From positions 124,894 through 188,893 of the forward strand of contig NZ_SJPF01000004.1 in assembly GCF_007859755.1 (NCBI RefSeq): a stretch of 64,000 nucleotides of DNA, read 5' to 3'. The notes beneath the pieces were generated by a model that saw only the letters and a program-made list of their open reading frames with translations, had not been told where the DNA came from and made no database searches. This DNA is from Blastopirellula retiformator. Its GTDB lineage: Bacteria; Planctomycetota; Planctomycetia; Pirellulales; Pirellulaceae. Each line of letters opens with the position of its first letter. The first letter of the stretch is position 1. Below, one piece after another: positions 2,485-22,994 of this stretch. The position numbers were made by a program, and so were the translations under genes.

Positions 2485-2965
2485 GAATGAATCTCGCGAT
2501 GAGCGAAGATGGAGTGACAACTAAAAGCGGCCGGTTTGATGCGGAAATGCAACTTCCTCACGATAATTGCAACCCGCGCCCTCAACAACAACAATCCCCC
2601 CGCTAAACGCGACACAAGGCCGCCTGCAGCGACCATAGGGATTATTCCGGCCGATACCAGGATGGCTGGTCAGAATCTGATGCGCTTATATGGGGCAAAG
2701 TTCCCTTTTGGGCACATCACCGCGTCAAATTTCAACGATTTCACAAAAAAATCGTCCAGTTCGGGAACTTCGCATCCGAGGGTTGCGACAAAAAGCATCG
2801 AATTGCCGGATCGCCCAAGTAATACCGCCCAGACAAAACGTAGCGATTGGGGCGATTCGAGGAATTTGATTGCGAAGCCGAATTAGCACAACTATCCTGG
2901 GCCGCAAGGCTCCCCAGTCCTCCCTGCTTATCCCGTTTAAACACATCCAGAACCGTTGGCTGGCC
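2485..2965. other. Divergent intergenic region
   Basis: This gap separates two divergently transcribed surface-protein genes and must hold both promoters. I see no convincing gene, RNA or strong hairpin. The long leader on the plus side (bases 2890-2965) could also be part of a translated TTG-started extension of the next gene, but the ATG at 2966 fits the family better. Confidence 0.5.
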
Positions 2966-5497
2966 ATGAAAAAGCGAAATAAATCTGCCTCCAAACGCCG
3001 TCCGTCGAATCGCCGCTCCTCGCGAAAACCGGCCGTCAGTATGGAAGCCCTCGAACCCCGAGCAATGCTGGCGTCCGACCTCAACGCCTGGCATAACCCG
3101 ACTCTGGCGCATGACGTCAACGGCGACAATCTGGTCGACCACAACGATCTGGAAATCGTGGTTTCGCAGTTGCGACTCGGTTCCCGCAGTCTTTCCAGCT
3201 CTAGCCAGTCGGCAGGCGGGCTGGAAGGGGAACAGGTCGTTTACCTCGACATCAACAATGACGGCCTGTTCACTCCGATGGACCTGAACTCGCTGCTGGG
3301 CGAGCTGTTGGAAGCGGAAGACGCCGGCAAGGAATACTCCGCCGCGTTCACGTTCGAGATCATCCAAGAGGACGACATGAGCAACCCGGTCGTCATCGGT
3401 ACGGCCGTGACCGATTTCGATCCCAACAGCCAAGATCCGATCATCTTCCCAGAGGATATCGAGGTCGAACAAAAGCCATTCACGCTCAACATCTATATTC
3501 GCAACACTTCGGCGATTACCGGCGTCACCTTTGGGATGGACGAAAGTCCCGATATTGCGGCCGCGTTCCTCAACATCAATTTTGATTCAAGTATCGTAAC
3601 GCCCACCGATGCCGGAAGTTTCGCCGCCCCCTTTGACAACGATGGCGGAATCGTCCCCGCCATTGATGGCAACTCGATTGTCAATGCTGGCGGCGGCACC
3701 ACGTTCAGCGATTCGCAGGTAACCGGGGGCTGGGAAAGCAATCAGTTGCTTTACACCGTCGAATTTAACCCGACGCAGTCCGGCGCCTTCATGCTGCAAG
3801 GCGAGATGGCGAATCTTGAGGACGAAAACGACCCGGACCAAAACGCCGCCGCGGTCGTCTTCACCGATGCCCGGATCGAGCAAAACGGGATGGTTACCCA
3901 GCTCGACATCGTCAACTTGGCCTTCCCTAAATTTAACGTCACCGTCCTGCAGCGTCCTGGCGCCAACAACGACAGCGTCGACGTCTCGGCCGACCTGGTT
4001 AACGAGATCGAAGCGGGCGACACGCGAATCGTCGAAATCGATGGCGTGAATTACCTGGCGATCGACGTCAAGGCGAACGATCTCAACTTCAATGGCGATC
4101 CGCTCACCGACGGCTCGGAGGTCGATCTGGCCTTGGGCAATTCGATCGCCATCGACGAGCTTCCCGATGATCAGGCCCTGCAGCAACGGGTAATGATTTA
4201 CACCCAAACCGATTACGCGATCGCTGGCTTCAGCGACGAGTATCTGGTCTATCTGTTGCCGAGCGACCAATCGGGCGTTGAATCGTTTGAATACATGATC
4301 ACCGACCCGAATGCAGTCGAGGATCCGACGACGGCGACCGTCACCGTCAACATCGCCCAGGTGCTCGTCGCCGTTGATGACGGCGACGCGACCACGCCGT
4401 TCGCCGAAGTCGAGCCGAACCAAACCGTCACGCTGCTTGTTCTGGAAGAAGTTAACGCTCCCGACTTCACTGGCGAAAACCCAGACTTCATCGCTGGCGA
4501 CGGCATGGAAGACTCGCTTGGTAACATCGTCATTACGGATGTCGCCGGTCAGGCGTTTGACGATGGCCGCCTTGTAATCGCCGCCGACGGCAAATCGCTG
4601 GCGTACACGGGGGCAGCGCTTCCAGGCCTAGAAACCTTCACCTACACGATCACCTACGTCGATGACCTGGGCGATCCGATCCTGGACGACCTGAATCAGC
4701 CGATTACCGACATGGCGACCGTTACGGTTCGCATTCCGATCAACAGTCGGATCGGCGGAGGCCTCTATTTTGACGTCAACAACAACGGCGCCTGGGATGG
4801 CAACGGCTCGACCAGCGCTACGCCGGAACAGTTTATCGGCGGCATCCGGGTTGAGCTGTACGATGGCGGCACGCTGGTCGCCGAGACCTTCTCTTCGGAA
4901 GCGGATGGAACGTTCGAGTTCCTCCGCATCGAGGAAGGCACCTATTCGATCAAGATCAACCAGCCGAAGTTCGTCTACAAGTTCGGTACCGGCCTCTCTG
5001 GAGCGTTGCCGGCCAATTGGAGCGTGCAAAGCGACGGTTCGGTGGTCATCAGCAACATGACCATCAGCGCCACTGGCGTGCTGGAGTTCAACGGTTTGAA
5101 CCTCGGTTACCTGGGACGCACCGGCGCCTATCGTGGTTTGGCGGACCAACTTTCCGACGTTGGTGACGAATCGATCACCTTCGCGGTTTCCAAGCAGGCG
5201 GACGGTTCCGGCGTGCTAGAATGGTACTCGGTCGACGAAGGTTGGTCCGAACTGGTGAAGATCGACGGGTTCCTGTTCAACTCGACGACCAAGACCGGCC
5301 AGGCCGTTCTGCTCATCGATCAGGATGGGGATTCGGCGACCCCGGACGTCGTCGCTCCGATCACGTTCTCGCCGAACCATCCGAACTTCGTCTTGATCGC
5401 CGATACGGATGACGCCGTCATCTTTATGCTTAATGGCGATATCGAAACGATCGTCGATCACCTGTCGACCGTCGACGTCGCGTTCTCAGACTTCTAA
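2966..5497 (+). CDS. Surface protein with N-terminal dockerin pair, cohesin-like and SdrD-B-like domains
   Basis: The product is 843 residues from an ATG at 2966. The leader is strongly basic (MKKRNKSASKRRPSNRRSS) and is followed by MEALEPRAMLASDL, the clearest example in this window of the LEPRxxLAS motif. Dockerin-like calcium loops lie unusually close to the N-terminus (DVNGDNLVDHNDL near residue 49, DINNDGLFTPMDL near 95). Then comes a cohesin-like beta-sandwich (about 155-330), two cadherin/Ig-like repeats with DPNAVEDPTTATVTVNI (about 330-590), and an SdrD-B/carboxypeptidase-regulatory-like fold (GGGLYFDVNNNGAWDGNG near 597 to 680). It is predicted to be exported and displayed outside the cell. 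The gene is monocistronic and ends at a strong hairpin terminator. Exact function is unknown. Confidence 0.88.
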   Translation: MKKRNKSASKRRPSNRRSSRKPAVSMEALEPRAMLASDLNAWHNPTLAHDVNGDNLVDHNDLEIVVSQLRLGSRSLSSSSQSAGGLEGEQVVYLDINNDGLFTPMDLNSLLGELLEAEDAGKEYSAAFTFEIIQEDDMSNPVVIGTAVTDFDPNSQDPIIFPEDIEVEQKPFTLNIYIRNTSAITGVTFGMDESPDIAAAFLNINFDSSIVTPTDAGSFAAPFDNDGGIVPAIDGNSIVNAGGGTTFSDSQVTGGWESNQLLYTVEFNPTQSGAFMLQGEMANLEDENDPDQNAAAVVFTDARIEQNGMVTQLDIVNLAFPKFNVTVLQRPGANNDSVDVSADLVNEIEAGDTRIVEIDGVNYLAIDVKANDLNFNGDPLTDGSEVDLALGNSIAIDELPDDQALQQRVMIYTQTDYAIAGFSDEYLVYLLPSDQSGVESFEYMITDPNAVEDPTTATVTVNIAQVLVAVDDGDATTPFAEVEPNQTVTLLVLEEVNAPDFTGENPDFIAGDGMEDSLGNIVITDVAGQAFDDGRLVIAADGKSLAYTGAALPGLETFTYTITYVDDLGDPILDDLNQPITDMATVTVRIPINSRIGGGLYFDVNNNGAWDGNGSTSATPEQFIGGIRVELYDGGTLVAETFSSEADGTFEFLRIEEGTYSIKINQPKFVYKFGTGLSGALPANWSVQSDGSVVISNMTISATGVLEFNGLNLGYLGRTGAYRGLADQLSDVGDESITFAVSKQADGSGVLEWYSVDEGWSELVKIDGFLFNSTTKTGQAVLLIDQDGDSATPDVVAPITFSPNHPNFVLIADTDDAVIFMLNGDIETIVDHLSTVDVAFSDF

Positions 5498-5587: not shown

Positions 5588-6994
5588 TTAGTAGTGGAAG
5601 TCGACGCCAAAGGTCATACCCAAGGCCCAATAGTCGTCGTCGCCGAAGGCGAACACCGGGTCGCCGCCACTGGGATTGATCGTCCCGGGGATGGCGCTTT
5701 GAGCCAGTGCGACATCGCTGACATAGATGTAGGTGCAACCGACCTTCAGGTCGACGTTGCAGGTCAACGCGTAGATCAAGTCGAGCTGGCCTTCCGGGAT
5801 GAAGCAGAAGACGTCTCGCGAGTAGCTGCCGATATTCGAGTCTTGAGCGTAGACGCCGCCGCTGAAGATGTCGACCGTGCCGAAGACGTCTTCGGTTCGC
5901 GAACCGTTGATCGCCATCCGCTGATGCATACCGCCGATCGCAATCTTGCCCATCGCTCGCCAGGTAAACGGGCCATCCTGGAAGTCGAAGATCAAACCGA
6001 ATTGGGCGCCGTTGAACTCGTTCTTCGCTTGGAAGATGTCGTTGTAGCTAACGACCGTTCCGACTGGGAACGAACCGCCGCCGACAGACGTAAACTGGGC
6101 GTTGTTCGACAAGGCGTCGTCGATCCGGGCGAAGTAGTAACCGGTCACAAAGTCGACCCGATTCGCGTGGCTCGTGTAAAGGTGCTTGGTGATGAACGCG
6201 TCGCCGGTGTAGAAGTTGTTCGTCTTCCGAATGTCGACCGTCGTATTGTTGGCCGCGTTGGCGCCGACGGTTTCGGCGATCACGATCGACGAGTTGGCGC
6301 TGGTGTTCGTGTTAAAGAACGGGTAGGCCAGCACCGGGAACTGCGTCGAAGTGGTGCTGATGCCCAACACTTCTCGCTCCAAGGCGAGGAAGCTACCGCC
6401 GACCGACCAGTTTTGATAGTCGTCCAGCCATAGCCCCGTGGTGATCCGGGCGCCGGTCAAAGCATGACCTTGCTCGGAACCGCCAAACAAGATCTGCGTC
6501 GACGGATCGCCAATCACGCCCTGGGCGCCAGGATCGCTGGTCGTCAGCAGCGGCGGCAGGTTCGAGCTCTTCCGCCACATGACCAGCAAGTCGGCCGAGC
6601 CGTAAACTCGCGGCGGCAGATCACAGTTGTTGCATGAAGCGTCATGCATCGTTTCGTGGTAGGGCGAACCCTCCATAACGCTGTCGCCGTACTCTTGTCC
6701 GGGGACATATTGTTCGTATTCGATCGGGGCGCCGTGCATGGCGGGATCTTGATATCCGGCCGGGGCGACGCCTTGGTATCCCATTGGCGCCGCGGCATTG
6801 CCGGGCGCAGGTCCCATGGGACCATACGGCATCGCATAACCTCCACCCATCGCCGAGTAGCCGGCCGGCGCGCCGTACCCAGGCGCCGCTTGCGGCGGAT
6901 AGTCTGGGGCATTCGGCATTTGGGCGCCGACTTGCGTCGAGAAGAGTGCAACGGCGGATAAGGCCGTCGACAGAATCAACTTTTTGGGCTTCAT
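5588..6994 (-). CDS. BBP7 family outer-membrane beta-barrel protein
   Basis: The product is 468 residues from the ATG at 6994, which gives a clean signal peptide (MKPKKLILSTALSAVALFSTQVGA, cleavage before Q). A 30-codon upstream extension exists but would bury the signal peptide. Residues 25-130 are low-complexity Pro/Gly/Ala/Tyr/Met (PMGPAPGNAAAPMGYQG style). The segment VYGSADLLVMWRKSSNLPPL marks the start of the BBP7 domain, a family expanded in planctomycetes. Many alternating aromatic/hydrophobic strands follow, and the chain ends in WALGMTFGVDFHY, with a terminal aromatic residue as in barrel proteins. It probably sits in the outer membrane; transport or structural role is not known. 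It converges with the 2966 gene across a terminator. Confidence 0.85.
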   Translation of the reverse strand: MKPKKLILSTALSAVALFSTQVGAQMPNAPDYPPQAAPGYGAPAGYSAMGGGYAMPYGPMGPAPGNAAAPMGYQGVAPAGYQDPAMHGAPIEYEQYVPGQEYGDSVMEGSPYHETMHDASCNNCDLPPRVYGSADLLVMWRKSSNLPPLLTTSDPGAQGVIGDPSTQILFGGSEQGHALTGARITTGLWLDDYQNWSVGGSFLALEREVLGISTTSTQFPVLAYPFFNTNTSANSSIVIAETVGANAANNTTVDIRKTNNFYTGDAFITKHLYTSHANRVDFVTGYYFARIDDALSNNAQFTSVGGGSFPVGTVVSYNDIFQAKNEFNGAQFGLIFDFQDGPFTWRAMGKIAIGGMHQRMAINGSRTEDVFGTVDIFSGGVYAQDSNIGSYSRDVFCFIPEGQLDLIYALTCNVDLKVGCTYIYVSDVALAQSAIPGTINPSGGDPVFAFGDDDYWALGMTFGVDFHY

Positions 6995-7462
6995 GATCTT
7001 TGCTCGCACGCTACGACTACTAAACGTGTTCATGCCATGCGCCGGGGCGATGCGGATTGAGCCGCAAGCATGAGGCGAATTCAAGGTGGTTTCTGGCGAG
7101 ACGAAGACTCCGCTTCGTCATCGTTTAGTCACGTCCGTGGCTCTCGCGAACCGCCTCCGCTCACCGAGCGTAATGCGGTTGTCCTGGACGTATTAGTGAT
7201 GTCGGCGAAACCGCCTGTAGCGATTAAGCAAAAGCACGCTTCAGCCGTCATAAACCGAATTATCGATCGGTCGCAGGATGGCGATCGGCAGGCCAGGGGA
7301 GCTGCGCAGACTTTGCGGCGGGGCGAATGAAAAAGGCGCTCCGGGCAGATCTTACCTATTTTAACGGCAGCAATCCCATACTTTCCGATTTCTAGACGGT
7401 AGGAACCTTTGCGACAGGAAGTCATACTAAATAGCTGTCGCACATTCCTTCCAAGAGACCTC
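6995..7462. other. Divergent intergenic region
   Basis: This 468-base gap lies between the BBP7 gene (minus) and the SecA-like gene (plus), so it should carry both promoters. Short frames on either strand show no family resemblance and no good ribosome site. I see no strong hairpin or repeat. Confidence 0.45.
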
Positions 7463-9427
7463 ATGACGACGCAAATCGCCGAATCCCGTTCCTTTCGAGC
7501 CGATCCCTTCTCCCAGGCCTACAGCGTGGTGACGGGCCGCGGCTTGGGGCGTTTTGTCGCAGAACTCCCCAAGATCGAGCGTTTTGAAGAAGAGTTCAAA
7601 AACAAATCCGACCGGGAACTTCGGAAATATAGCCTGGGTCTCCGCCATCGCGCCAAAAGCGGCGAACCGCTAGCACGCTTGCTTCCCGAAGCGTTCGCTC
7701 TCGTCCGAGAGGCAGGGCGGCGAACCATTCGCATGCGGCATTACGACGTGCAGTTGATCGGCGGCATGATCATGTTCAACGGCGCCATCGCCGAGATGGA
7801 AACGGGCGAAGGCAAAACGCTGACCGCCACGCTCCCCATGTATCTCTACGCGCTGCCAGGCAATGGCGCCCACCTGGCGACGGTCAATGATTATCTGGCC
7901 CGCCGCGACGCCGAAATCATGCAGCCGCTGTACGAAATGCTGGGCATGTCGATCGGCGTGGTTGAGTCGCAAATGCAGTCCGACGCGCGTCGCAAAGCGT
8001 ACGCCTGTGATATCACCTACGGCACCTCGAAGGAGTTCGGGTTCGACTTTCTGCGCGATCGCCTGCTGATACGGCAGATTCGCGAACAAGGGCTTGGCGT
8101 GCTTGGCGCTTTAATGTCAAAAGACGAAGAAACGAACGAGCAACCGGTGCAGCGCAGCGCCTATTTCTGCTTGGTCGACGAGGCCGATAGCGTTTTGATC
8201 GACGATGCCCGGACGCCGCTGATTATTAGCTCGATCCCAGGCGAAGCGGAAGAACGGGCGGTCGCCTGTTTTCGTTGGGCGGCCGAGAAATGCAAGGAAT
8301 TTGACGAAGACGACCACTACGAATACGACCACGACCGCAAGTCGGTCGAACTGACGATCGAAGGCCGGTTGTTGGTACGCCGACTGCCGAAACCGCCCGA
8401 ACTCGATTCGGTCGGTCTGGTCGATCTGTATGACTATATCGAGCGAGCCATCAAGGTTGCCCGCGACTTCCACTTCAACCAGCATTACGTCATCAACGAA
8501 GGAGAGATCGTCATCGTTGACGAGTCGACCGGACGTTTGGCCGAAGGGCGAAAGTGGAGCGGCGGCATCCATCAGGCGATCGAAGCCAAAGAAGAAATCG
8601 AAGTGACCGTCGCCACCGGCCAAGCGGCGCGCATCACCGTGCAGGACATGTTCATTCGCTATCGCCACTTGGGCGGCATGACCGGCACCGCGTCAACCTC
8701 GACGGCCGAGTTCAAGAAGATCTACAAGCTCAACGTCATTCGCTGTCCCACCAACCGTAAGGTCCAGCGACAAATCTGGCCCGACCGCGTCTTTGGCACC
8801 GAAGACGCCAAGTGGGCGGCGATCATTGAAGAAATCCGCGAAATTCATGGCCAAGGTCGCCCGATTTTGATCGGTACCCGCACGATCGAGAAAAGCGAGC
8901 ACCTGGCGAAACTGCTGGAAGCGGAAGGGATCGAGCACGAAGTCCTCAACGCCCGGCATGTGGCGATCGAAGCCGAGATCGTCTCCCGCGCCGGCGCTCC
9001 CGGCAAGGTGACCGTCGCCACCAACATGGCGGGCCGCGGTACCGACATCAAGCTTTCCCAGGAGATTAAAGACCTGGGAGGTTTGCATGTGATCTGCACC
9101 GAACTTCACGACTCGGCCCGGATCGATCGTCAGCTGGTCGGACGTTGCGGCCGCCAGGGAGACCCCGGCAGCGTGCGTCAGTTCATGTCGCTCGACGACG
9201 ATTGTTTGCGCATCGGGTACGGCCCGATCCGCGCCGAAAAGCTGGCCGCCATTGGCGAAAAGGCGAGCGGTGAACTCAATCAGTACGCTTCGCTCTTCCG
9301 CAAAGCGCAGCGGAAAATCGAACGTAAGCACTTTGGCGACCGCAAAGTCCTGCTCTATCACGAAAAGATGCGGAAGAAAATGCACCGCGAAATGGGCCAA
9401 GACCCCTACCTAGACTCCCCAGATTAA
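7463..9427 (+). CDS. Shortened SecA-like preprotein translocase ATPase
   Basis: The product is 654 residues from the ATG at 7463 (AAGAGA lies six bases upstream). It shows the SecA DEAD-box motor: Walker A GEGKT (115-119), DEAD (239-242) within the LVDEADSVLIDDARTPLI motif, MTGTAST, TNMAGRGTDIKL and RQLVGRCGRQGDPGS. The pre-protein cross-linking region between the motor halves is present. After the long scaffold helix (AQRKIERKHFGDRKVLLYHE) the protein stops. It therefore lacks the wing domain, two-helix finger and zinc tail of full SecA (about 900 residues in E. coli). It is first in a same-strand set with HlyD-like and M50 genes, ending at the terminator at 15664. Likely an accessory SecA-type ATPase at the inner membrane; whether it moves protein is unproven. 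Confidence 0.9.
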   Translation: MTTQIAESRSFRADPFSQAYSVVTGRGLGRFVAELPKIERFEEEFKNKSDRELRKYSLGLRHRAKSGEPLARLLPEAFALVREAGRRTIRMRHYDVQLIGGMIMFNGAIAEMETGEGKTLTATLPMYLYALPGNGAHLATVNDYLARRDAEIMQPLYEMLGMSIGVVESQMQSDARRKAYACDITYGTSKEFGFDFLRDRLLIRQIREQGLGVLGALMSKDEETNEQPVQRSAYFCLVDEADSVLIDDARTPLIISSIPGEAEERAVACFRWAAEKCKEFDEDDHYEYDHDRKSVELTIEGRLLVRRLPKPPELDSVGLVDLYDYIERAIKVARDFHFNQHYVINEGEIVIVDESTGRLAEGRKWSGGIHQAIEAKEEIEVTVATGQAARITVQDMFIRYRHLGGMTGTASTSTAEFKKIYKLNVIRCPTNRKVQRQIWPDRVFGTEDAKWAAIIEEIREIHGQGRPILIGTRTIEKSEHLAKLLEAEGIEHEVLNARHVAIEAEIVSRAGAPGKVTVATNMAGRGTDIKLSQEIKDLGGLHVICTELHDSARIDRQLVGRCGRQGDPGSVRQFMSLDDDCLRIGYGPIRAEKLAAIGEKASGELNQYASLFRKAQRKIERKHFGDRKVLLYHEKMRKKMHREMGQDPYLDSPD

Positions 9428-9720
9428 CATCGCGACCCGCATTTTCGTCGCATCCGGAACGAAATCGCAATTCAGAACGTCTGAATTGTTTGGGCCAGTT
9501 CGCTTGCGCTTTCGTACTGAAGTTCAATCGCCATCGGTCGTTACGACCGTTGCAATCCTCATAGCCGGTTTGATGGGAGAGATCGCTGGACTTTCCCAAA
9601 GATCTGATCTGGTTTTGAAATACGTCAATTTCGGTTTTTGCTCGCCGTTGGTATGGTGGGACGTAAGATTCTGTTGTTGGAATCCCTCCCCAGGGTTCCC
9701 AATCCCCTCCGAAGCTCTTG

Positions 9721-11790
9721 ATGAATCAACAATCTGCTATGTCTTCCGAATCGTCCTCGGCCAATCCAGAGTCCCTCGAAAGCACAAAGCGACAGATTCG
9801 AAGTCTGATCCAAGAGATCGCTGCGCTTTCGAAACAAAACGTCGCTCCTGAAGACTACTTTCGCGAGATGTTGCCGAAAGTCGTCTCTGCGCTGGCCGCA
9901 ATCGGCGGCGCCGCGTGGATCTATGACGAAAAGCGCCGGCCGCGCCTGATTTATCAGGTCAATTTGACGCGCAGCCTTGTCGATCCCGAGGACAACGACG
10001 GCATCCGCCATCTCCGTCTGATCGAGGAGATGTTCAAGGGTTCGCCCGGGCAGTTGCTGCCGCCGCAATCTGGCTCGATTGACGAAGGCGCTTCGGGTAA
10101 CCCGACCAACTCGCTGCTGGTGATCGCTCCGATCAAGAACGAAGATCAGGAAGTGGAAGGGGTCATCGAGATCTTCCAGCGGCCTGACTCGCAACCGGCC
10201 AGCCAACGCGGATACCTCCGCTTCCTTGAACAAATGTGTGGGCTGACGACCGAATGGTTTAAGACCCGTCAGCTGAAGGACTTCTCAGACCGCCAATCGC
10301 TGTGGGCGAAGATCGAGCAGTTCTCTCGCGCGGTTCACGAAAACCTCGACCTGCGTCAGACCGCTTACACCATCGCCAACGAAGGCCGCCGCCTGATCGG
10401 TTGCGACCGGGTTAGCGTCGCCTTGCGACGAGGTCGTCGCTGGAAGGTAGAAGCGGTCAGCGGGCAAGACGTCTTCGACGCCCGATCGAATCAAATCACC
10501 TTGCTGGGCAAACTGACCAAAACGGTCATGGATACCGGCGAAGCCTTCTGGTTTAGTGGTCACACCGAAGATCTCTCGCCCCAGCTTGAGACGGCCGTCC
10601 ACGACTACGTCGATGAGTCGCACACCAAGACGATCGCGATTATTCCGCTTCGTCGGCCTGAACATGCGACCGACGCCAAAGAGAAGATTGAAGGGGAAGA
10701 AGAACGCGAATACCAGGGCGAAATCCTGGGGGCGCTGATCGTCGAGCAAATCGAAGACAGCTCGAACCAGGCCGAGTTCCGCAAAGGGGTCGAACTGATC
10801 TCCGAGCATAGCTGCCGCGCCCTGGCCAACGCGATCGACTACAACAACATCCCGCTGACGCCGCTGTGGCGATTGCTGGCCAAATCGCAGGTGCTGGTCG
10901 AGGCGCGGAACCTGCCGAAGACGGTCGGCGTTACCGTTGCGGTAATCGCGGCGACGATCGCTTTGTGCGTGATTCAGGTGCCGTTCCGTCTCTCCGGAAC
11001 AGCGACCCTCACGCCGGTCGAAAAGCGAGACATCTTCGTTCGCGAAGAGGGGGAAGTAATCGACGTTCCGGTCAAACATGGCCAGATCATCGAAGCGGGC
11101 CAACTGGTCGCCCAACTTCGCAACCGCGATCTTGACATGCAGTACGAACGTTTGCTCGGCGAACAATCGAAGGCGGAGCAGTCGCTGCGTGGTTTGATCC
11201 ATCGCCGCAACTTCGCCAAAGATGACGACGAAAAACGTCAACTGGCGGTCGATTTGGCGCTGGCCGACATGGAAGTCGACAAACTAAACGATCAAATGGC
11301 GCTGCTCGCTCAGAAGCAGCAGTTCCTGGAAGTACGCAGCCCGATCTCGGGCGAAGTGGTCAGCTGGGACGTGCGAGACTCGCTGATGCAACGTCCCGTT
11401 TCGCCGGGTCAGATCTTGATGACGGTCGTCGATCCGTCGCAAGACTGGGTGCTGGAAGTGAAGATGCCGGAGAAGCGTCTGCAGCACATCGTCATGGCGC
11501 AACAGGAGATCGGCCAAGACTTGGACGTCACCTACATCATGGCGAGCCAACCGGGCGTGCAACTGGAAGGCAAAGTGATCGAAATCCAGCGGCTCGCTCA
11601 ATCCGATCCGGACGAAGGACAGATCGTTCGGATCAAGGTGGCGATCGACAAACAAAAACTGATGGAAGCGATTCCCCAACTCCGTACCGGAGCGACCGCT
11701 ACCGCCAAGATCAATTGCGGAACCGCTCCGCTTGGTTACACCTGGCTGCACGAGGTCTGGGAGTTCATTCAATCGCGCGTGCTGTTCTAA
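9721..11790 (+). CDS. GAF-domain and HlyD-like membrane fusion protein
   Basis: The product is 689 residues from ATG 9721. The cytoplasmic half holds a GAF-like region (about 195-380, with ANEGRRLIGCDRVSVALRRG and the later TKTIAIIPL strand), preceded by a second, less clear GAF-like fold (about 40-165). One membrane span lies near 401-421 (VGVTVAVIAATIALCVIQVP). The outer half is a HlyD-type adaptor: beta-barrel, lipoyl halves (VREEGEVIDVPVKHGQIIEAG and VRSPISGEVVSWDV) and an intervening coiled coil. Known HlyD proteins link inner-membrane pumps to outer-membrane channels. Fusion to a GAF sensor suggests ligand-responsive gating, which is inference. It lies 293 bases after the SecA-like gene and 77 bases before the next HlyD gene. 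Confidence 0.85.
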   Translation: MNQQSAMSSESSSANPESLESTKRQIRSLIQEIAALSKQNVAPEDYFREMLPKVVSALAAIGGAAWIYDEKRRPRLIYQVNLTRSLVDPEDNDGIRHLRLIEEMFKGSPGQLLPPQSGSIDEGASGNPTNSLLVIAPIKNEDQEVEGVIEIFQRPDSQPASQRGYLRFLEQMCGLTTEWFKTRQLKDFSDRQSLWAKIEQFSRAVHENLDLRQTAYTIANEGRRLIGCDRVSVALRRGRRWKVEAVSGQDVFDARSNQITLLGKLTKTVMDTGEAFWFSGHTEDLSPQLETAVHDYVDESHTKTIAIIPLRRPEHATDAKEKIEGEEEREYQGEILGALIVEQIEDSSNQAEFRKGVELISEHSCRALANAIDYNNIPLTPLWRLLAKSQVLVEARNLPKTVGVTVAVIAATIALCVIQVPFRLSGTATLTPVEKRDIFVREEGEVIDVPVKHGQIIEAGQLVAQLRNRDLDMQYERLLGEQSKAEQSLRGLIHRRNFAKDDDEKRQLAVDLALADMEVDKLNDQMALLAQKQQFLEVRSPISGEVVSWDVRDSLMQRPVSPGQILMTVVDPSQDWVLEVKMPEKRLQHIVMAQQEIGQDLDVTYIMASQPGVQLEGKVIEIQRLAQSDPDEGQIVRIKVAIDKQKLMEAIPQLRTGATATAKINCGTAPLGYTWLHEVWEFIQSRVLF

Positions 11791-11867
11791 GCGACAGTCG
11801 CACGGCGGAATCGAACCGCCGGACGCTCGCCCACCTCCCCACAATCCGTCCTCAGGAATTAGATAGC

Positions 11868-12824
11868 ATGACCCTCGCCATCCTTTTACTCGCCGCCGCG
11901 GTTGGACAAGTTCCCGCTTCGTCAGCTCAGCCTGGCGACATCGTCGTCGAGCACTGCCTGGTTTCGTTGATCGACCAGGTGAACGTGCCGGCCCAGGAAA
12001 CCGGCATGCTCGTTTCGATTCCGGCCTATCGCGGTCGGATTGTCGCCGATGGCGATCTGCTAGCGCAAATTGACGACCGGACCGCGTCGAAGCAAGCCGA
12101 CATCGCCAAGTTTCGTCACGACAAGGCGAAGACCGAGGCCGCCAACGACATCGACGTCCGCTACGCCACCAAGGCGGCCGAAGTCGCGCTGAAAGAGCAC
12201 GAAGTCTTCGAGCAAAGTAACCGGGAAAGCCGCGGTACGATCAGCAAAATGCAGCTCGACAAAGCCTGGCTCGCTTACCAACGGGCGGTCTTGCAAATCG
12301 AACAAGCCGCCATGAATCAGAAGATCGCCGGTCTCGCCGCCGCCGAAAGCCGCGCCGAGATGGAAGGCGCCCAGATGGTCATGGACCGCTGCCGTACCGA
12401 ATCGCCGATCAACGGCGTCGTCGTGCAGGTTTATCGTCAAGAAGGCGAGTGGGTTCGTCCCGGCGATCCGCTGTTGCGACTGATTGGTCTGCAGTGGTTG
12501 AAAGTGGAAGGGACCCTCGACGCCGATCAGCACGATCCTTCGCAACTGATTCATCGCCCGGTCACCGTGACGGTTAACACGCCTTCGGGCCTGCAGCAGT
12601 TCTCAGGTTTCGTCAACTTCGTCAGCCCCGAGATCGACGCGACCGGCTCGTTCGACATCTCGGCCGTGGTTGAGAATCGTCAAACCGCCAAAGGTTACTG
12701 GGCGCTAAGCCCGGGCGACATCGCCGGCATCGACGTCCACACCAATCGTCAACCGGTTTCTGCTGCGGATCTGGAACGCTTCCGCACGCGAAACGAAAAG
12801 ACCGCCGCGCTGACCGAGAACTAA
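11868..12824 (+). CDS. Periplasmic HlyD/RND-type adaptor protein
   Basis: The product is 318 residues from ATG 11868, with AGGA 11 bases upstream. The signal peptide is MTLAILLLAAAVGQVPASSA. Next comes a lipoyl half (NVPAQETGMLVSIPAYRGRI), a coiled coil (KQADIAKFRHDKAKTEAAND to about 165), the second lipoyl half (TESPINGVVVQVYRQEGEWV) and a beta-barrel region. This is the periplasmic adaptor architecture without a membrane anchor. It is 13 bases upstream of the M50 fusion gene and so almost certainly co-transcribed and co-functional. Longer upstream reading of the same frame overlaps the preceding gene and is rejected because it would remove the signal peptide. Confidence 0.85.
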   Translation: MTLAILLLAAAVGQVPASSAQPGDIVVEHCLVSLIDQVNVPAQETGMLVSIPAYRGRIVADGDLLAQIDDRTASKQADIAKFRHDKAKTEAANDIDVRYATKAAEVALKEHEVFEQSNRESRGTISKMQLDKAWLAYQRAVLQIEQAAMNQKIAGLAAAESRAEMEGAQMVMDRCRTESPINGVVVQVYRQEGEWVRPGDPLLRLIGLQWLKVEGTLDADQHDPSQLIHRPVTVTVNTPSGLQQFSGFVNFVSPEIDATGSFDISAVVENRQTAKGYWALSPGDIAGIDVHTNRQPVSAADLERFRTRNEKTAALTEN

Positions 12825-12837
12825 ACGAGCAAATACG

Positions 12838-15090
12838 TTGGCTACGCTAACTGACAGTTTGATCGCCAGCAGTTCACGCCCCCTCGGCCTGCGCGTTCGC
12901 CCTGATCTGACCTCGCGTCGGCATTATTATCAGGGACGCGCGTACTGGGTGGTGAAGGAACCGCTTGGGCTGAACTACTTCCGCTTCCAGGAAGAAGAGT
13001 ACGCCATTCTGCAAATGCTGGATGGGTATACTTCGCTGGAAACGATCAAAGAGAAATTCGAAAAAGAGTTCGCGCCGCAGAAGATCGGCTTTCGCGAACT
13101 GCAGCAGTTTGTCGGCACGCTCCACCGCAGCGGTTTGATCATCGCCGAGTCGCGCGACCAAGGTCGCCAACTGCGGAAACGCCGCGACAATCGCAGGTGG
13201 CAAGAGCGCATGCAGACGGCCTCCAACATTCTATCGATCCGCTTCAAAGGGATCGATCCAGAATGGCTGCTAAACGCGCTGATGCCGTACACCCGGTGGC
13301 TGTTTACCAAGGCGGCGTTGATCTTCTTCTCGCTCTACGCCTTGTCGGCGCTGCTGCTGGTGCTGGTGCAATACGATACCTTCCGCAGTCGCCTGCCGGA
13401 GTTTCAAGAGTTCTTCGGCCCCGAATGGTCTAACTGGCTGTTGCTCGGCTGCGTGCTGGCCGCCACCAAGATCTGCCACGAGTTTGGCCACGGCCTGTCG
13501 TGCAAACGATTTGGGGGCGAGTGTCATGAGATGGGGGTCATGTTCCTGGTGCTGACCCCTTGCTTGTACTGCAATGTTTCCGACTCTTGGATGTTGCCGA
13601 ACAAGTGGCACCGCGCTGCGATTGGCGCTGCGGGGATGTATATCGAAATCATCCTGGCGTCGACCGCGACGTTCATCTGGTGGTTTAGCGAACCAGGCCT
13701 GTTGAATCACCTCTGCCTACAAGTGATGTTCGTCAGTTCGATTAGTACGATCGTCTTTAACGGCAACCCGTTGCTCCGTTACGACGGCTACTACATCCTG
13801 GCCGACATCATGGAAGTGCCGAACATGCGGCAGAAGGCGAGCACCATCCTGCAGCGCACGATGTCGAAGTGGTGCTTGGGCCTGGAACAGCCGGAAGACC
13901 CGTTCCTGCCGCAGCGAAATCAGTTAGCGTTCGGCCTGTATACGATTGCGTCCAACATCTACCGTTGGGTCGTGATGTTTTCGATTCTGTACTTTCTCAA
14001 TCAAGTCTTCGAGCCGATGGGCTTGAAGGTCATCGGTCAAACGATCGCCATCATGGGTTTGTGGGGGCTGGTCGTGATGCCCCTCTGGAAGTTCGGCAAG
14101 TTCATGTACGTGCCGGGGAGAATGTCGCAAGTGAAACGTAAAAACGTGCTCGCGACGGTCGCCGTGGCCGTCGGCGTGATCGCCGCTATCGCGTTGATTC
14201 CATTGCCGCAATGGGTCAACTGCCCGGTCGAAGTCCGACCGGAAAACGCGGAAGTCGCGTATGTCGTCGTCCCGGGCGTGCTCGAGGAAATGCTGGTCGA
14301 GCCCGGCCAGCAAGTGGAGAAGGGCGCCCAGTTGGCCCGCGTGGTCAACTACGACCTGCTGATCCAAATCGCCGAGTTCGAAGAAGAGGAAAAGCGGCTG
14401 ACCCGTCTGCGCGACAGCCTGCACCACCTGCGGCTGGGCGACAACGCCGGCTCCTCGTTCGAGCAGCGCTACATGGAAGTCCGCAAACAGTTGGAGTCGG
14501 CTTCGGAACAACTTCGCAAAAAGCGACTTGAGCAGCAGTTGATCAACGTGCCGGCGCCGATCAGCGGATACATTTTCCCTTCGGCCGACCGCCGCGATCC
14601 GCAAGCGGGTTCGGGGCAATTGCCGAGCTGGAGCGGCTCGCCATTTGAAGAGCAAAATCAAGGCGCCTACGTCACCACCAGCGACGCGCTTTGTCAGATT
14701 GGCCAATCGGATCAGATGGAAGCGGTCATTTACGTCGACCAGGACTTCGTCGAACTGGTCCGCCCTGACCAAGAGGTTTACATCAAGCTCGATGCGTTTC
14801 CAGGCAAGACCTTCGAAACCAAGCTGGCGGAGATTGGCGACAAGCAGGTCGAATACGTTCCGACCAGCCTGACGGTGCAGCAAGGCGGCGAACTCGCCGC
14901 GGAAACCGATCCCCTTTCTGGCCGAGCGAAACCGCAGAATGCGACGTTTCCGGCGCAAGCGCCGCTCACCGACGTCGAGGCGATGACGGCGGTCGGCTTG
15001 CGAGGTCGCGCCAAGATTTTCGTCGACTGGCAGCCGCTAGGCGTCCGAATGTGGCGCTACGTGAACCGCACCTTCCACTTCAAGCTGTAG
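12838..15090 (+). CDS. PqqD-like / M50 site-2-type protease / HlyD-like fusion
   Basis: The product is 750 residues and begins at a TTG; no in-frame ATG or GTG lies between the preceding stop and this codon. Residues 45-105 resemble the PqqD winged-helix fold (EEEYAILQMLDGYTSLETIK). A membrane region follows with the M50 zinc site HEFGH at 214-218 and the third-ligand motif RYDGYY (Asp316), within about six spans. After the last span the chain becomes a HlyD-like module with lipoyl halves (VPGVLEEMLVEPGQQVEKGA, VPAPISGYIF) and a coiled coil. M50 enzymes cleave substrates inside the membrane; PqqD domains bind ribosomally made peptides. Together these suggest processing and export of a peptide or protein substrate, which is inference. 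All expected M50 metal ligands are present. Confidence 0.87.
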   Translation: MATLTDSLIASSSRPLGLRVRPDLTSRRHYYQGRAYWVVKEPLGLNYFRFQEEEYAILQMLDGYTSLETIKEKFEKEFAPQKIGFRELQQFVGTLHRSGLIIAESRDQGRQLRKRRDNRRWQERMQTASNILSIRFKGIDPEWLLNALMPYTRWLFTKAALIFFSLYALSALLLVLVQYDTFRSRLPEFQEFFGPEWSNWLLLGCVLAATKICHEFGHGLSCKRFGGECHEMGVMFLVLTPCLYCNVSDSWMLPNKWHRAAIGAAGMYIEIILASTATFIWWFSEPGLLNHLCLQVMFVSSISTIVFNGNPLLRYDGYYILADIMEVPNMRQKASTILQRTMSKWCLGLEQPEDPFLPQRNQLAFGLYTIASNIYRWVVMFSILYFLNQVFEPMGLKVIGQTIAIMGLWGLVVMPLWKFGKFMYVPGRMSQVKRKNVLATVAVAVGVIAAIALIPLPQWVNCPVEVRPENAEVAYVVVPGVLEEMLVEPGQQVEKGAQLARVVNYDLLIQIAEFEEEEKRLTRLRDSLHHLRLGDNAGSSFEQRYMEVRKQLESASEQLRKKRLEQQLINVPAPISGYIFPSADRRDPQAGSGQLPSWSGSPFEEQNQGAYVTTSDALCQIGQSDQMEAVIYVDQDFVELVRPDQEVYIKLDAFPGKTFETKLAEIGDKQVEYVPTSLTVQQGGELAAETDPLSGRAKPQNATFPAQAPLTDVEAMTAVGLRGRAKIFVDWQPLGVRMWRYVNRTFHFKL

Positions 15091-15275
15091 CCGCCGCAAC
15101 GATCCCCGGGTATCGCTTGTAACGTTTCCAGCGATAATGTTGGATAAAGAATTCAATAGTCTGCGGAGTAGGGACTTTTCGCCGACCAGTTCCGGCGGCG
15201 CCGCAACTAAGCTAACCGTTATCGAAACTGTTACAACTCGCTCTGTTCGTTTTTCCCCTTAGGAGTCGAATTTCT

Positions 15276-15632
15276 ATGGCCGACGCCCCCGAAAAAGAAG
15301 AAGCCACCTCCCCCGAAGCCGGCAAGCCCGCCGCTCCCGTGCGTCAGCAGGTCGAGTTGGATGAAAGTACGCTAATCGCTTCCTACGCCAACTTCTGCCG
15401 CGTGACCGGTACGCCGGAAGAACTGATCATCGACTTCGCGCTCAACACGCAGCCGGTCGGTGTTCCGCAGGGATCGATCAAGGTCAACCAACGCATCATC
15501 CTGAACTACTTCACCGCCAAGCGAATGCTCGCCGCGCTGCAGGTTTCGGTTCAGCGCCATGAAGCGGCGTTCGGTAACCTGGAAATCGATTTCCAGAAGC
15601 GGATGTTGCCGTCGGTTCGCCCGCAAGGCTAG
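15276..15632 (+). CDS. DUF3467 domain protein
   Basis: The product is 118 residues, with a strong ribosome site (AGGAGT, 9 bases before the ATG). The first 30 residues are charged and Pro/Ala rich. The core ELDESTLIASYANFCRVTGTPEELIIDF, which continues to a VNQRIILNYFTAKRML helix, matches the DUF3467 family: small bacterial proteins of unknown function. It is the last gene before the terminator at 15664 and 185 bases after the M50 fusion, so it may belong to the same unit or have its own promoter. Confidence 0.85.
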   Translation: MADAPEKEEATSPEAGKPAAPVRQQVELDESTLIASYANFCRVTGTPEELIIDFALNTQPVGVPQGSIKVNQRIILNYFTAKRMLAALQVSVQRHEAAFGNLEIDFQKRMLPSVRPQG

Positions 15633-15663
15633 TCTGGCGCACCATGCCAACGTAATTCACCCG

Positions 15664-15698
15664 AAGCGGCAGCCTGATTCAGGCTGTCGCTTTTTTTT
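15664..15698 (+). terminator. Strong Rho-independent terminator
   Basis: A 13-base stem (AGCGGCAGCCTGA with TCAGGCTGTCGCT, one wobble) with no more than a tight loop is followed by eight T. It closes the SecA/HlyD/M50/DUF3467 unit. Confidence 0.9.
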
Positions 15699-15903: not shown

Positions 15904-18900
15904 GTGCTTCCCCTTGAAATCGCCATCTTCACTTTCGTTGGTTTCGTCCTCTGCTGTGGGGCAATTCTGATGGTAAGTCGCATTTCCCAAGCGAAGGCGC
16001 TGCCGGCCAAAATCGGCGGCAACCAACGTCGCAAGCCAGGCCCCCATCAGGTCGAGGCGCTCGAGGTACGCGAGGTTTTCGACGCTTCCGGCGTTGAGCT
16101 AGAAGGCGAAAACATCTTCATCGACGGGCAGTTCTACGCCAACGTCGACATGGTCGCCCTGGCCAAAGCGATCACCGCCACCGGCGCCAAGTTCTATGGC
16201 GCCGTCTGGTGCCCACACTGTACCGAACAAAAACAAATCTTCGGCGAAGGTGGCGAGTATCTGCCGTTCGTCGAAGTGACCAACCCCGATCGCACGCTCA
16301 ATGACCTTGGCTCGTCGTTGGGAATCACCAGTCTGCCAACCTGGATCTTTGCCGATGGACGCCGCGAAGAAGGAACTCTGACGCTGGCCGAGGTAGTCCA
16401 GTTCTCGGGCGTGACCGTGCCGACCTCCACCGATCCCTACATCGCCGAGATAGATCCAGTCACGCTCTACTCGGGCGAGCCGCTCTTCCTGACGCTGGAC
16501 GGCTATTCGCCCACCGGGCAACCGCTCACCTACACCGTCACCAGCGAAAGCGGCACGGTCCTTTCCGAGGTCCGGCAGCAAACGCGAAGCCTGCGACTGA
16601 CGATCAAGAACTTCGGCGTCATGGAGTTCCAACTGCTGGAAGACTACGCCAGTCTGGCGACCCAGCAGATTATCTCGCTGGTCGAATCGGGTTTCTACGA
16701 CGGCCTGGTCTTCCATCGGATCATCAACGACTTCATGATCCAGGGTGGCGATCCAACCGGAACCGGCATGGGCGATGGCCAAACGCCCGAGTTCAATGAT
16801 CAGTACGACTTCGACCTGCGTTACAACCGCGCCGGTACGCTTGGGATGGCCAAGTCGTACGATGACACGAACACGTCGCAGTTCTTTATTACCGAGAACG
16901 GCGACTATCGAAACTCGCTCGATTTTCGGTACACCATTTTTGGCTACATGACCGAAGGGGACGCGGTTCGAGAAGCGATCAGCAACATCCCCACCAACGC
17001 TAGCAACTATCCGAGCTACGCCGCCGTCATCGAGAAAGCGGAGATCTTTTACGACCGCGAGAACGCGTTGGTCAAGCTCGATACCTTCGTCAGCGGCATC
17101 GCCGGCTCCGACACGCTAACCGTTACCGCGACCGACGCCAGCGGAAATACGTTTACGCGTAACGTCTCGGTCAGCTACATCCCGTATTCGGCCAACAAGC
17201 CCGCGTACCTCGGCCCGGTTCCAAACATGGTCGTCAACCCGGGCAACGTTCGCACCTTTCAACTGGCAGGCTTCGATGCGAACGGCCACACGGTGCGTTT
17301 TCTGGACAAGGCCGGGCTTGACGCGCGAGGCTGGGCCTATGAACCGCATGCCAGCAACGGCCTGATTTATTCGGTGGATAACGTCTCCGGCACGTTGACG
17401 ATCCAGGCTCCCAGCAACTTCCGTGGCGAGGGGCAGATTATCGTCGCCGCCTATGACGGCTATGCGTCGGGCTCGGGGGACGTCGATTTTCAGCTTATCA
17501 CCATCTCGGCCTCCTCCGCTCCGGTCTTGGTGAGCGACACGTTCGACACGATCGCCGGCTCGGTCAATACGCTGACGCCATTGGCGAACGATACCGCTGC
17601 GGCGCCGGCGTTTGACTTGAGCACCTTTGAGCTCTTAGATGCGCCGGACGGGTTACAAATTTCGGTCGAAGGGGGCGTAATCACCTACGCGCCGCCGCTG
17701 GGTTTCACCGGCACCTTCACGCTGCGATACAACGTCGAGAACATCTACGGAGGCTTCGCCGCCGACAGCGCGGCGATTACCATCAATGTCGTCGCCAACA
17801 CCCAGACGGTCGCTGGCGCCGACGCGTTCCAGGTCGATGTCGCCAGCGTCGCCATTCTCGACGTTCTCGGCAACGACCGAGCCAACAAATACTGGTCGAC
17901 CAGCGCTGGACTGTCGATCGTTTCGATCGGCAACTCGGCCGCTGGCGCGACCATTTCGATCGAAAATGGCAAGCTCCGTTATATCCCGGCTTCCGGCTAC
18001 ACCGGCCTCGACACGTTCTCCTATAGCGTTACCAACGGCGATACGACCGCGATCGGCGAGGTGACCGTTTCGGTCCTCGAGATTGAGGACATCAGCGTTA
18101 CCGTCACGCGCGAGAAAACGACCGCAACATCCGTCGACGCGCTACCGCAGAACGAAGCCTATCTCAGCGAATGGGATGCGTTCTGGGTCGAAATCTGGGC
18201 CAATGGCGACCGCATTTCGACGCAAGGCGTCAGCGCCGCGGCGCTCGACCTGAAATTCATGCCGCAACTGTTCTCTGCGACGGCGGTCGAACCGGGCGCG
18301 GGATTTGAATTCAACGGCACGCCGGCGATCAATGGCGAAACGGGAGAGATCACCGGCCTGAGCGCCGTCGCAACTTCGTCGGGACTGGGCGCCGGCAACC
18401 GCGTCTTGTTGGCCCGCGTTCGCTTTCAGCCAGCCTCTGGCGACGGCCTGGCGGTCGACAGCGACGGTCTCGACTTCGGATCGGTCTTTTCCGTCAGCAA
18501 CGCCCAGATCCAGGCGCCAGATACGGACTTGGTCAACGCCCAGATCACCTCGCTTCCCGGCGTCAAGATTCTGCCGGTCGTTTATGACCTGAACGATGAC
18601 GGTCAAATCGACCTGGCCGACATTTTCACCTTCGCTAATCTGTACAACAACGGCGCACCGGCCCAATCGCCGCTGGGCGACTTTGACGCCAGCGGCGCCC
18701 TGACGCCGTACGACGTCACGCTTATGCTTCGCGAGCTAGGCGAGTCGTGGGTCACGGTCAGCAGCGGCAGCAAACTGATTTACGACTTCAGCTATCTGGA
18801 AGGAGCGATTGCCGAAGAGCCGCTGGTCGCCTCGGCGTTCGGCCTAACCAGCCAGCCGACCACGATCGAGACCGAGACCGTCCAGCCGGTCATGGACGCC

Positions 18901-19314
18901 GCGACGGCGATGATCGCAGACGCCTATAGCCAGCTCGATGTCTTCAATTTCACGGTTGCGACCAGCTTCCAGATTGTGGATCTGCCGGGCTCGCAGCTCA
19001 GCTATCGCCACAACGGCGTGATCTATCTGGACATTGACGCCGCTGGCTGGGGTTGGTTCATCGACTCAACTCCCACCGTCAACGAAGAATTCACCTCAAG
19101 CGGCGACGACGCCTGGGCGGCGATTGCGGCGGGCGACGCGGATGGCGGCATTGATCTGCTCAGCGTTATCCTGCATGAACTGATCGGCGAAGGAGATGAG
19201 GCCCAGAATCCGCTCTTCGCCGATACGCTGGCCCCGAGCACGCGTTACCTTTTCGCCCCTGAAGACCTGCCGGTCTATCAACTGCTGGTCGATCAGGCGA
19301 TGGCGCAGGCCTGA
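15904..19314 (+). CDS. Thioredoxin-cyclophilin fusion surface protein with cohesin/dockerin module
   Basis: The product is 1136 residues from GTG 15904. A membrane span (LEIAIFTFVGFVLCCGAIL) precedes the LExR-type motif VEALEVREVFDASG. Residues 90-175 form a thioredoxin-like domain with WCPHC (102-106), in the KFYGAVWCPHCTEQKQIFG context typical of the Trx domain fused to VKOR. Residues 230-385 are a cyclophilin-type prolyl isomerase (VFHRIINDFMIQGGDPTGTG, SQFFIT, FTIFGYM-like end). Ig/cadherin-like repeats fill 400-720. A cohesin-like domain with SEWDAFWVEIWA follows, then dockerin loops (DLNDDGQIDLADI near 896), then a metalloprotease-like tail whose zinc motif is decayed (HELIG at 1091-1095). 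Likely anchored outside the inner membrane, where the first two domains could help folding and disulphide chemistry. It has its own promoter region after the terminator. Confidence 0.88.
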   Translation: MLPLEIAIFTFVGFVLCCGAILMVSRISQAKALPAKIGGNQRRKPGPHQVEALEVREVFDASGVELEGENIFIDGQFYANVDMVALAKAITATGAKFYGAVWCPHCTEQKQIFGEGGEYLPFVEVTNPDRTLNDLGSSLGITSLPTWIFADGRREEGTLTLAEVVQFSGVTVPTSTDPYIAEIDPVTLYSGEPLFLTLDGYSPTGQPLTYTVTSESGTVLSEVRQQTRSLRLTIKNFGVMEFQLLEDYASLATQQIISLVESGFYDGLVFHRIINDFMIQGGDPTGTGMGDGQTPEFNDQYDFDLRYNRAGTLGMAKSYDDTNTSQFFITENGDYRNSLDFRYTIFGYMTEGDAVREAISNIPTNASNYPSYAAVIEKAEIFYDRENALVKLDTFVSGIAGSDTLTVTATDASGNTFTRNVSVSYIPYSANKPAYLGPVPNMVVNPGNVRTFQLAGFDANGHTVRFLDKAGLDARGWAYEPHASNGLIYSVDNVSGTLTIQAPSNFRGEGQIIVAAYDGYASGSGDVDFQLITISASSAPVLVSDTFDTIAGSVNTLTPLANDTAAAPAFDLSTFELLDAPDGLQISVEGGVITYAPPLGFTGTFTLRYNVENIYGGFAADSAAITINVVANTQTVAGADAFQVDVASVAILDVLGNDRANKYWSTSAGLSIVSIGNSAAGATISIENGKLRYIPASGYTGLDTFSYSVTNGDTTAIGEVTVSVLEIEDISVTVTREKTTATSVDALPQNEAYLSEWDAFWVEIWANGDRISTQGVSAAALDLKFMPQLFSATAVEPGAGFEFNGTPAINGETGEITGLSAVATSSGLGAGNRVLLARVRFQPASGDGLAVDSDGLDFGSVFSVSNAQIQAPDTDLVNAQITSLPGVKILPVVYDLNDDGQIDLADIFTFANLYNNGAPAQSPLGDFDASGALTPYDVTLMLRELGESWVTVSSGSKLIYDFSYLEGAIAEEPLVASAFGLTSQPTTIETETVQPVMDAATAMIADAYSQLDVFNFTVATSFQIVDLPGSQLSYRHNGVIYLDIDAAGWGWFIDSTPTVNEEFTSSGDDAWAAIAAGDADGGIDLLSVILHELIGEGDEAQNPLFADTLAPSTRYLFAPEDLPVYQLLVDQAMAQA

Positions 19315-22456: not shown

Positions 22457-22994
22457 CCTGCACTCCTTTGACCAAAAATCCCCCGCCCCCCGTGGGACTT
22501 CAGGGCGCCAAGCCATGGAACATACGTTCACGGCGAGACGGTACCGCGCAAATGGACACGGTAGGCAGTAGTTCATTCGGAACAATCGAATCCTAAAGTT
22601 TGATCGAAATGATTGGTACCAAAGGGATTATTGCGACAGAGGCCGCACAGAGTCGCTAATCGGAATATCTTCACACAGAATGCACAAACAAACGCTTATG
22701 CATGGCAAACGCTTAAAACGCACCACCCTGAAATCCCCTAAAGGCGGCATAACGATAAGGTGGCATGGGAAAACTAGGTGATTGAGATCAACATAGTGAC
22801 AGCATTCTCGTTGAAATCACGAAACCGCCTGATTTAAATGGAACTCCGTAGAACGCTACCCCCTCTCTAACCCAGGATTTTTTCCCGACGGTTAGAATCG
22901 CTCCAACGCTAACTACGGTCCTCGTTTCCCCTTTCTCTCCTTAACCCCCCAAACTATCAACATCTCCCCGGATCTTGGGTGGTCGGTGCATAGC
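22457..22994. other. Divergent intergenic region
   Basis: This 538-base gap separates the minus-strand porin from the giant plus-strand gene. It is richer in A+T than its surroundings (for example around 22640-22830) and must contain both promoters. I found no gene, repeat or strong hairpin here. Confidence 0.5.

Follow-up and report, generated by a model that had tools for sequence, protein, structure and literature searches.

Five genes on one strand lie at 7463-15632 of the DNA analysed here, a stretch of 64,000 nt from Blastopirellula retiformator (contig NZ_SJPF01000004.1; hereafter the window). They encode a short SecA-like ATPase (SecAL), a GAF protein with a membrane-fusion (HlyD) part, a HlyD-type periplasmic adaptor, an M50 site-2-protease-like protein fused to a HlyD adaptor, and a DUF3467 protein. 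All five reading frames were found at the positions given in the original prediction, which had been made from the letters of the sequence. The genes are separated by 290, 77, 13 and 185 bases. An ATG start (11868) was picked for the HlyD adaptor gene; its frame as listed opens at a TTG, 11715. As predicted, the unit ends at one strong terminator-like hairpin. The stem of this hairpin is the longest among 13 terminator-like sites in the region, the runner-up having 9 pairs; the number of such sites is itself not above chance (shuffle mean 11.3).

Pfam detected neither an ABC-transporter domain nor a TolC domain in the five operon proteins, in agreement with the prediction, and pump domains of the RND, MFS and ABC types are likewise absent. 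None of the five is an evident inner-membrane pore. The HlyD adaptor scored 87.5 bits against the NCBIfam model RND_mfp, below its cut-off of 94.9 bits. The features of the operon and of its surroundings are collected in Table 1.

Table 1. Positions of the operon, its terminator and neighbouring features in the window
Feature	Position	Strand	Size	Domains and remarks
LEPR-type protein (FETLEAREVL)	679..2520	-	613 aa	Candidate substrate
LEPR-leader protein (MEALEPRAMLA)	2870..5497	+	875 aa (frame)	Dockerin and weak SdrD_B-like matches; candidate substrate
BBP7 predicted outer-membrane beta-barrel	5588..7084	-		Pfam BBP7 3.2e-73; divergent from SecAL
Short SecA-like ATPase (SecAL)	7463..9427	+	654 aa	Pfam SecA_DEAD, SecA_PP_bind, P-loop_SecA
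GAF + membrane-fusion (HlyD) protein	9718..11790	+	690 aa	Pfam GAF, HlyD_3
HlyD-type periplasmic adaptor	11868..12824	+	318 aa	Pfam HlyD_3, HlyD_D23
PqqD-like + M50 site-2-protease-like + HlyD adaptor fusion	12838..15090	+	750 aa	Pfam M50, HlyD
DUF3467 protein	15276..15632	+	118 aa	Pfam DUF3467 2.8e-21; candidate small cytosolic partner
Intrinsic terminator-like hairpin closing the unit	15663..15693	+		14 pairs, then a T run
LEPR-type protein (VEALEVREVFDA)	15904..19314	+	1136 aa	Cyclophilin and Ig-like domains; candidate substrate
LEPR-type protein (SERLEIRDLLA)	22986..31814	+	2942 aa	Cadherin-like repeats (by eye); candidate substrate

The SecA-like ATPase

SecAL has no Pfam SecA_SW domain. 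Its best matches in the PDB are SecA2 chains, with residues 35-636 of SecAL aligned to residues 23-609 of the 781 residues of SecA2 6t4h. SecAL retains NBD1, PPXD and NBD2. Since this alignment ends at residue 609, we take the protein to stop before the helical wing and the two-helix finger. Against the four NCBIfam SecA2 models SecAL scored 623, 550, 457 and 439 bits, below the respective cut-offs of 1085, 930, 725 and 1100 bits, and was therefore not assigned to SecA2. An alphaproteobacterial relative has a SecAL with which it shares 41% identity.

The same genome encodes another protein with a SecA_DEAD match, its frame being 1,240 aa long (G000:C1:1118866). The 654-aa protein is therefore an extra SecA beside a separate canonical one, which rules out the possibility, raised together with the original prediction, that SecAL is the sole SecA of the cell. 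SecA_DEAD was also searched for in 18 of the 20 planctomycete genomes whose regions are compared below. A short SecA-like protein was found in 17 of the 18, and a frame of at least 1,136 aa likewise in 17 of the 18. Among the 10 genomes in which SecAL is not beside the M50 gene, nine encode a short SecA-like protein elsewhere (the exception is G034). Paralogous export sets are suggested by one planctomycete genome (G009), in which five short SecA-like frames occur together with numerous M50 matches.

The M50 fusion and the DUF3467 protein

The M50 fusion scored 26.3 bits against Pfam M50, just below the cut-off of 27.2 bits. An intramembrane-protease motif with Asp316 had been predicted, and the HExxH motif and the third-ligand Asp (H214, E215, H218 and D316) are identical in all 40 M50 fusions that were aligned. 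For the predicted PqqD-like fold, Pfam PqqD (PF05402) did not match the window protein, but it did match 11 of the 40 aligned fusions. In a structure model of the fusion (pLDDT 82.3, pTM 0.59), the N-terminus consists of strands followed by three helices, an order compatible with PqqD. The C-terminal half has an adaptor-type fold that resembles MexA and MacA, MexA being the best match (Foldseek E 4e-12). All 50 matches shown by Foldseek for the whole model were of the adaptor type; this comparison is therefore silent on the PqqD and M50 parts. Residues 31-414 can be aligned to the daptide protease model NF041824, and the score of 188 bits against a cut-off of 300 bits led us to reject membership of that family.

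The model of the DUF3467 protein (pLDDT 77.7, pTM 0.56) had no PDB match at E<=0.001. A SecB-like fold, which we considered for this protein, is thus unsupported. Its gene lies downstream of the M50 gene in the window, unlike the upstream position that it has in part of the genome loci compared below.

LEPR-leader proteins in the window and its genome

The LEPR export-signal motif goes back to Studholme et al. 2004, as cited in PMC8567305. Four frames of the window bear an N-terminal LExRx motif with two following hydrophobic residues after a basic stretch. The window N-termini fall below the cut-offs of both published models, PF07595 (planctomycete N-terminal surface motif) and NF012209 (LEPR-XLL). 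PF07595 matched none of the N-termini scanned; NF012209 gave one of them 12.1 of the 17 bits needed and left the others scanned unmatched. Because these short models were too weak for the window N-termini, we built motif profiles, of which A6 and A7 were used in the searches. The four window sequences were used in building A7, so that its match to them is not independent.

In the genome of the window A7 found 18 motif matches at E<=0.5. PF07595 matched 22 places at E<=10, of which at least nine coincide with A7 matches and none is one of the window's four; sub-cut-off matches at this threshold were also present in 8 of 14 control genomes. One PF07595 match in this genome, outside the window, exceeded the cut-off. 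The top 12-residue hydropathy of 32 leaders, read from the first Met where present, was 1.44, compared with 2.25 for the single control, BBP7. On this measure the leaders have no Sec-type hydrophobic core. The protein at 15904 may be an exception: if the first codon is its start, a hydrophobic stretch precedes its motif, and this stretch lay outside the part tested. Two of the four proteins recur in related regions: all three regions from the same genus have a homologue of the one at 2870..5497 in the corresponding place, and a homologue of the one at 15904..19314 adjoins the operon in L034-L037.

The same genome contains a second set of GAF-HlyD, HlyD and M50 genes at about C1:1268-1273 kb (L151 6250-11338, onward into L152). 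No SecA-like gene is beside this set, and it is followed by a LEPR frame of 4,471 aa with RELEPRMVLSATA. A further LEPR match, at G000:C2:899833-899907, lies in an open frame of 8,191 aa on a contig that differs from those of both M50 sets.

Conservation of the locus

The M50 fusion matched in all 40 planctomycete genomes searched, including that of the window; in one of them (G024) the match is a fragment at a contig end. One region each from 20 of the 39 other planctomycete genomes was compared. The GAF-HlyD, HlyD and M50-HlyD genes occur together in 20 of the 20 regions, SecAL in 10 and DUF3467 in 12. The full five-gene set is therefore not fixed. Scattering of the five genes in related genomes had been named as a refutation of the original prediction, and this comparison does not refute it. 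A BBP7 homologue is present in 9 of the 10 regions with SecAL and in none of the 10 without it. It is possible that this barrel forms the outer-membrane part, or channel, in place of TolC.

More widely, we compared contigs from the best 80 of at least 585 relatives, with one genome per species. These best 80 of at least 585 loci are mostly from Pseudomonadota, and some are Desulfo-type, Nitrospira, Rokubacteria or myxococcal. Within this best-80 set, GAF/HlyD was found upstream of M50 in 70 of 70 loci with room for it, and a SecA-like protein was matched in 62 of the 67 loci with room downstream of M50 and was missing from the other five. Of 70 loci with room, 31 encode DUF3467 on the same strand at most 3.5 kb upstream of M50, and TolC was matched in 5 of the 80. 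In 36 of 61 loci of the set, a same-strand frame of at least 900 aa has its end 1-3.5 kb upstream of M50. Ten large frames with a readable start in these best 80 of at least 585 loci bear the LEPR motif, a count to which no denominator can be attached because many of the long frames there are spurious opposite-strand ones. As a control, the motif pattern was sought in the first 170 residues of frames of 300-900 aa from the same loci. It was present in 6 of 932 such frames (3 after shuffling), and one of the six (L125) is among our seed sequences.

A tblastn search of plasmids yielded 80 records, of which 12 were opened among the matches listed. Nine of these 12 plasmid relatives have a large neighbour with a readable 5' end, and this neighbour bears the LEPR motif in eight: Thalassospira, two Azospirillum, Burkholderia anthina, Methylosinus, Pseudosulfitobacter, Variovorax and an E. 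coli plasmid. The Phyllobacterium plasmid locus has a large neighbour without the motif. In Thalassospira a single run comprises a LEPR-XLL protein, DUF3467, HlyD, the M50 fusion, a second HlyD and TolC; an OEP protein is present in this relative. TolC is annotated in 7 of the 12 opened plasmid relatives, two of the 12 records having no gene annotation. The annotation of the plasmid loci from Thalassospira, Azospirillum, Burkholderia, Variovorax and E. coli lists no SecA-like protein.

Several loci (L056, L061, L062, L063, L065, L160 and L161) form a second class with HlyD, HlyD and M50-HlyD, to which TolC is added in most of them. No SecA-like gene was seen near the loci of this class, and their motif variant ends in two hydrophobic residues followed by DA or DG, not in LLSAD. 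One of them is the Variovorax plasmid locus (L062 13673-28846), in which the TolC/HlyD/M50 set is followed directly by type II secretion genes.

Association of the motif with the M50 fusion

Because most of the large frames run off the locus, whole genomes were searched with A6, a 36-position motif profile. A6 gave 40 matches at E<=0.01 in 30 genomes that have the system, and for 35 of them the distance to an M50 fusion is 10 kb or less. Counted from the other side, 25 of the 30 genomes and 34 of the 43 M50 copies have such a close match. With frame lengths counted from the motif onward, 37 of the 40 matches at E<=0.01 are in frames of at least 1,000 aa (median 8,652 aa). Only 2 of 40 weaker matches are in frames of this size, and both of these adjoin M50. 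The LEPR-motif neighbours are mostly longer than 1,000 aa and reach 17,824 aa.

We also compared genomes with and without the M50 fusion in three samples. Some profile seeds were drawn from the same groups as the samples. Sample 1 consisted of 149 genomes from the family of Pseudooceanicola (G050), presumably Rhodobacteraceae, and the motif was scored at E<0.005. The M50 fusion was matched in 27 of the 149, and five of these (G071, G094, G115, G117 and G141) were dropped as partial matches of 75-103 bits. The motif was present in 17 of 22 genomes with the M50 fusion and in 2 of 127 without it (Fisher 4e-16, a p-value that, like those of the other two samples, is too small because the sampled genomes are related). 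Fifteen of 22 motif matches are within 4 kb of M50. Five of the 22 M50-positive genomes have no motif at the threshold. Three of them were opened; a sub-threshold motif is present in the large neighbour in two (G120 and G131), and the stretch examined in the third (G166) has no motif.

The other two samples gave similar associations. In sample 2, which comprised 194 genomes from the order of Seongchinamella (G043), the motif at E<=0.005 was found in 26 of 48 genomes with the fusion and in 2 of 146 without it (p=6e-17), and 27 of the 40 listed motif matches at E<=0.02 are within 20 kb of M50. In sample 3, 196 genomes of Planctomycetota scored at E<=0.001, the counts were 19 of 46 and 1 of 150 (p=6e-13). 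Five or more motif matches were found in 16 of the 46 M50-positive genomes and in none of the 150 others. When the class of the window was removed, the association persisted (11 of 31 versus 1 of 150, p=7e-9). A looser threshold weakens the link, the counts at E<=0.05 being 28 of 46 and 21 of 150. At the thresholds used, 22 of the 48 M50-positive genomes of sample 2 and 27 of the 46 of sample 3 have no motif. Conversely, G196 (E 1.4e-7), G099, G571, G578 and G355 have motif matches and no M50 fusion.

A candidate exporter of LEPR-leader proteins

The same locus was reported by Kamneva, Poudel and Ward in 2015 from several phyla, including Planctomycetes and Proteobacteria (PMC4452313). The authors proposed a secretion-related function and called its broader role completely unknown. 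As in the present genome, the locus described there includes a SecA_DEAD protein without SecA_SW, M50-HlyD, HlyD and GAF-HlyD proteins and a separate canonical SecA; OEP proteins occur in some loci. The predicted unit is therefore a known locus, and its reading as an export system is supported, but the combination of parts had already been published. The available part of the 2015 text names no substrate and does not mention LEPR, DUF3467 or PqqD. In the literature that we found, no transport machine is tied to the PF07595 or LEPR-XLL motif. Among the papers seen in a search of open-licence literature, none joins the LEPR motif to the locus. The candidate LEPR-leader substrate is thus the new part of this study, the locus itself being already described. 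Each of two orphans may be the explanation of the other, the machine described in 2015 lacking a known cargo and the export signal a known machine. If so, this would account for the surface placement of very large adhesin-like proteins in planctomycetes and many proteobacteria.

We think it likely that the cluster is a tripartite exporter, with a SecA-type ATPase where others have an ABC one, and that it is dedicated to proteins whose leader is mostly basic, non-hydrophobic and ends in a motif of the LExRx(L/M/V)(L/F/Y) type. The genomic comparisons support the view that, in Planctomycetota and Pseudomonadota, LEPR-leader proteins and the system travel together; these proteins are often very large. 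A small substrate gene had been expected nearby; the evidence points instead to large LEPR-leader proteins as the recurrent neighbours. That LEPR-leader proteins are the substrates is well supported, and the mechanistic steps are what we infer. The PqqD-like domain of the M50 fusion, of the RiPP recognition element (RRE) type, would bind the leader, and the M50 site would cut it at or in the membrane. SecAL, with both nucleotide-binding domains and the preprotein-binding domain, would feed the unfolded chain. The HlyD modules would form a periplasmic tunnel that ends in TolC where TolC is linked; in planctomycetes it would end in an unlinked channel or in the neighbouring BBP7 barrel. A role as cytosolic adaptor or chaperone is possible for DUF3467, as is a regulatory one for the GAF domain. 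In many proteobacteria the machine sits beside one giant protein. Since the LEPR matches are scattered over the genome of the window, one planctomycete machine would serve many substrates. The weak points of this proposal are that SecAL is often unlinked, that TolC is linked in some cases, that the five proteins offer no evident route through the inner membrane, that Pfam detects PqqD in 11 of 40 fusions and not in that of the window, and that the DUF3467 model lacks a confident structural match.

Among known systems, type I secretion shares with the locus the HlyD adaptors, TolC in some relatives and very large surface-type proteins. However, the locus has a SecA-type ATPase and no ABC transporter, the shared mark of the proteins is N-terminal, and the protease is fused to an adaptor. 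Canonical type I secretion was rejected, as Pfam finds no ABC transporter among the five proteins. The accessory SecA2 systems of Gram-positive bacteria likewise have a second SecA beside the canonical one, but SecAL is shorter, ends before the wing and finger and is linked to HlyD adaptors. The M50 part can be aligned to the daptide protease MpaP (NF041824) and other RiPP M50 proteases; here, in contrast, it is fused to an adaptor, scores below the cut-off and has large proteins as recurrent neighbours.

The likeness to SecA2 leads to a different account, in which SecAL and ordinary SecYEG move the LEPR proteins and the M50 and HlyD proteins act later, in trimming, release or outer-membrane anchoring. 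SecAL does keep PPXD and both NBDs, its closest PDB structures are SecA2 chains, and the five proteins include no other evident inner-membrane pore. Loci without a linked SecAL could use the housekeeping SecA. We nevertheless consider this account unlikely, since SecAL ends before the wing and finger, falls below all four SecA2 cut-offs, and the tested leaders have no hydrophobic core. Maturation and export of a small RiPP-type peptide, as in daptide clusters, would make the large neighbours incidental. The presence of the LEPR link in all three genome samples and the failure of the fusion to reach the 300-bit cut-off of the daptide model make this very improbable, even though it scores 188 bits there and 11 of 40 fusions have a PqqD-type domain.

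We give almost no credence to two further explanations. A small-molecule or metal efflux system with an accessory protease would fit adaptor domains like those of the MexA, MacA and CusB families, but it accords with neither the lack of an RND, MFS or ABC pump domain in the five proteins nor the association with LEPR proteins. Shared mobility, by which the LEPR giants and the locus travel together without working together, has in its favour that both are patchy, that several relatives are on plasmids, and that horizontal transfer of the locus was proposed in PMC4452313. Yet several proteobacterial groups show the same gene neighbourhood, and the association persists in planctomycetes though the LEPR matches are scattered over the genome.

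To return to the proposed exporter of LEPR-leader proteins, we see the case for a distinct, unnumbered secretion system as evenly balanced. Such a system would combine a SecA-type motor with an RRE-protease-adaptor fusion and tripartite adaptors, and proteins with a leader tag, as long as ~18,000 residues, would pass through it directly to the surface. Its form with many substrates would be the 'LEPR' surface proteome of planctomycetes, where BBP7 is a possible outer-membrane channel. One of the candidate substrates, the protein at 15904-19314, has a CxxC thioredoxin-like stretch (seen by eye) and the cyclophilin domain (Pfam) ahead of its Ig-like domains, and may act at the surface as a foldase on other proteins that are exported.
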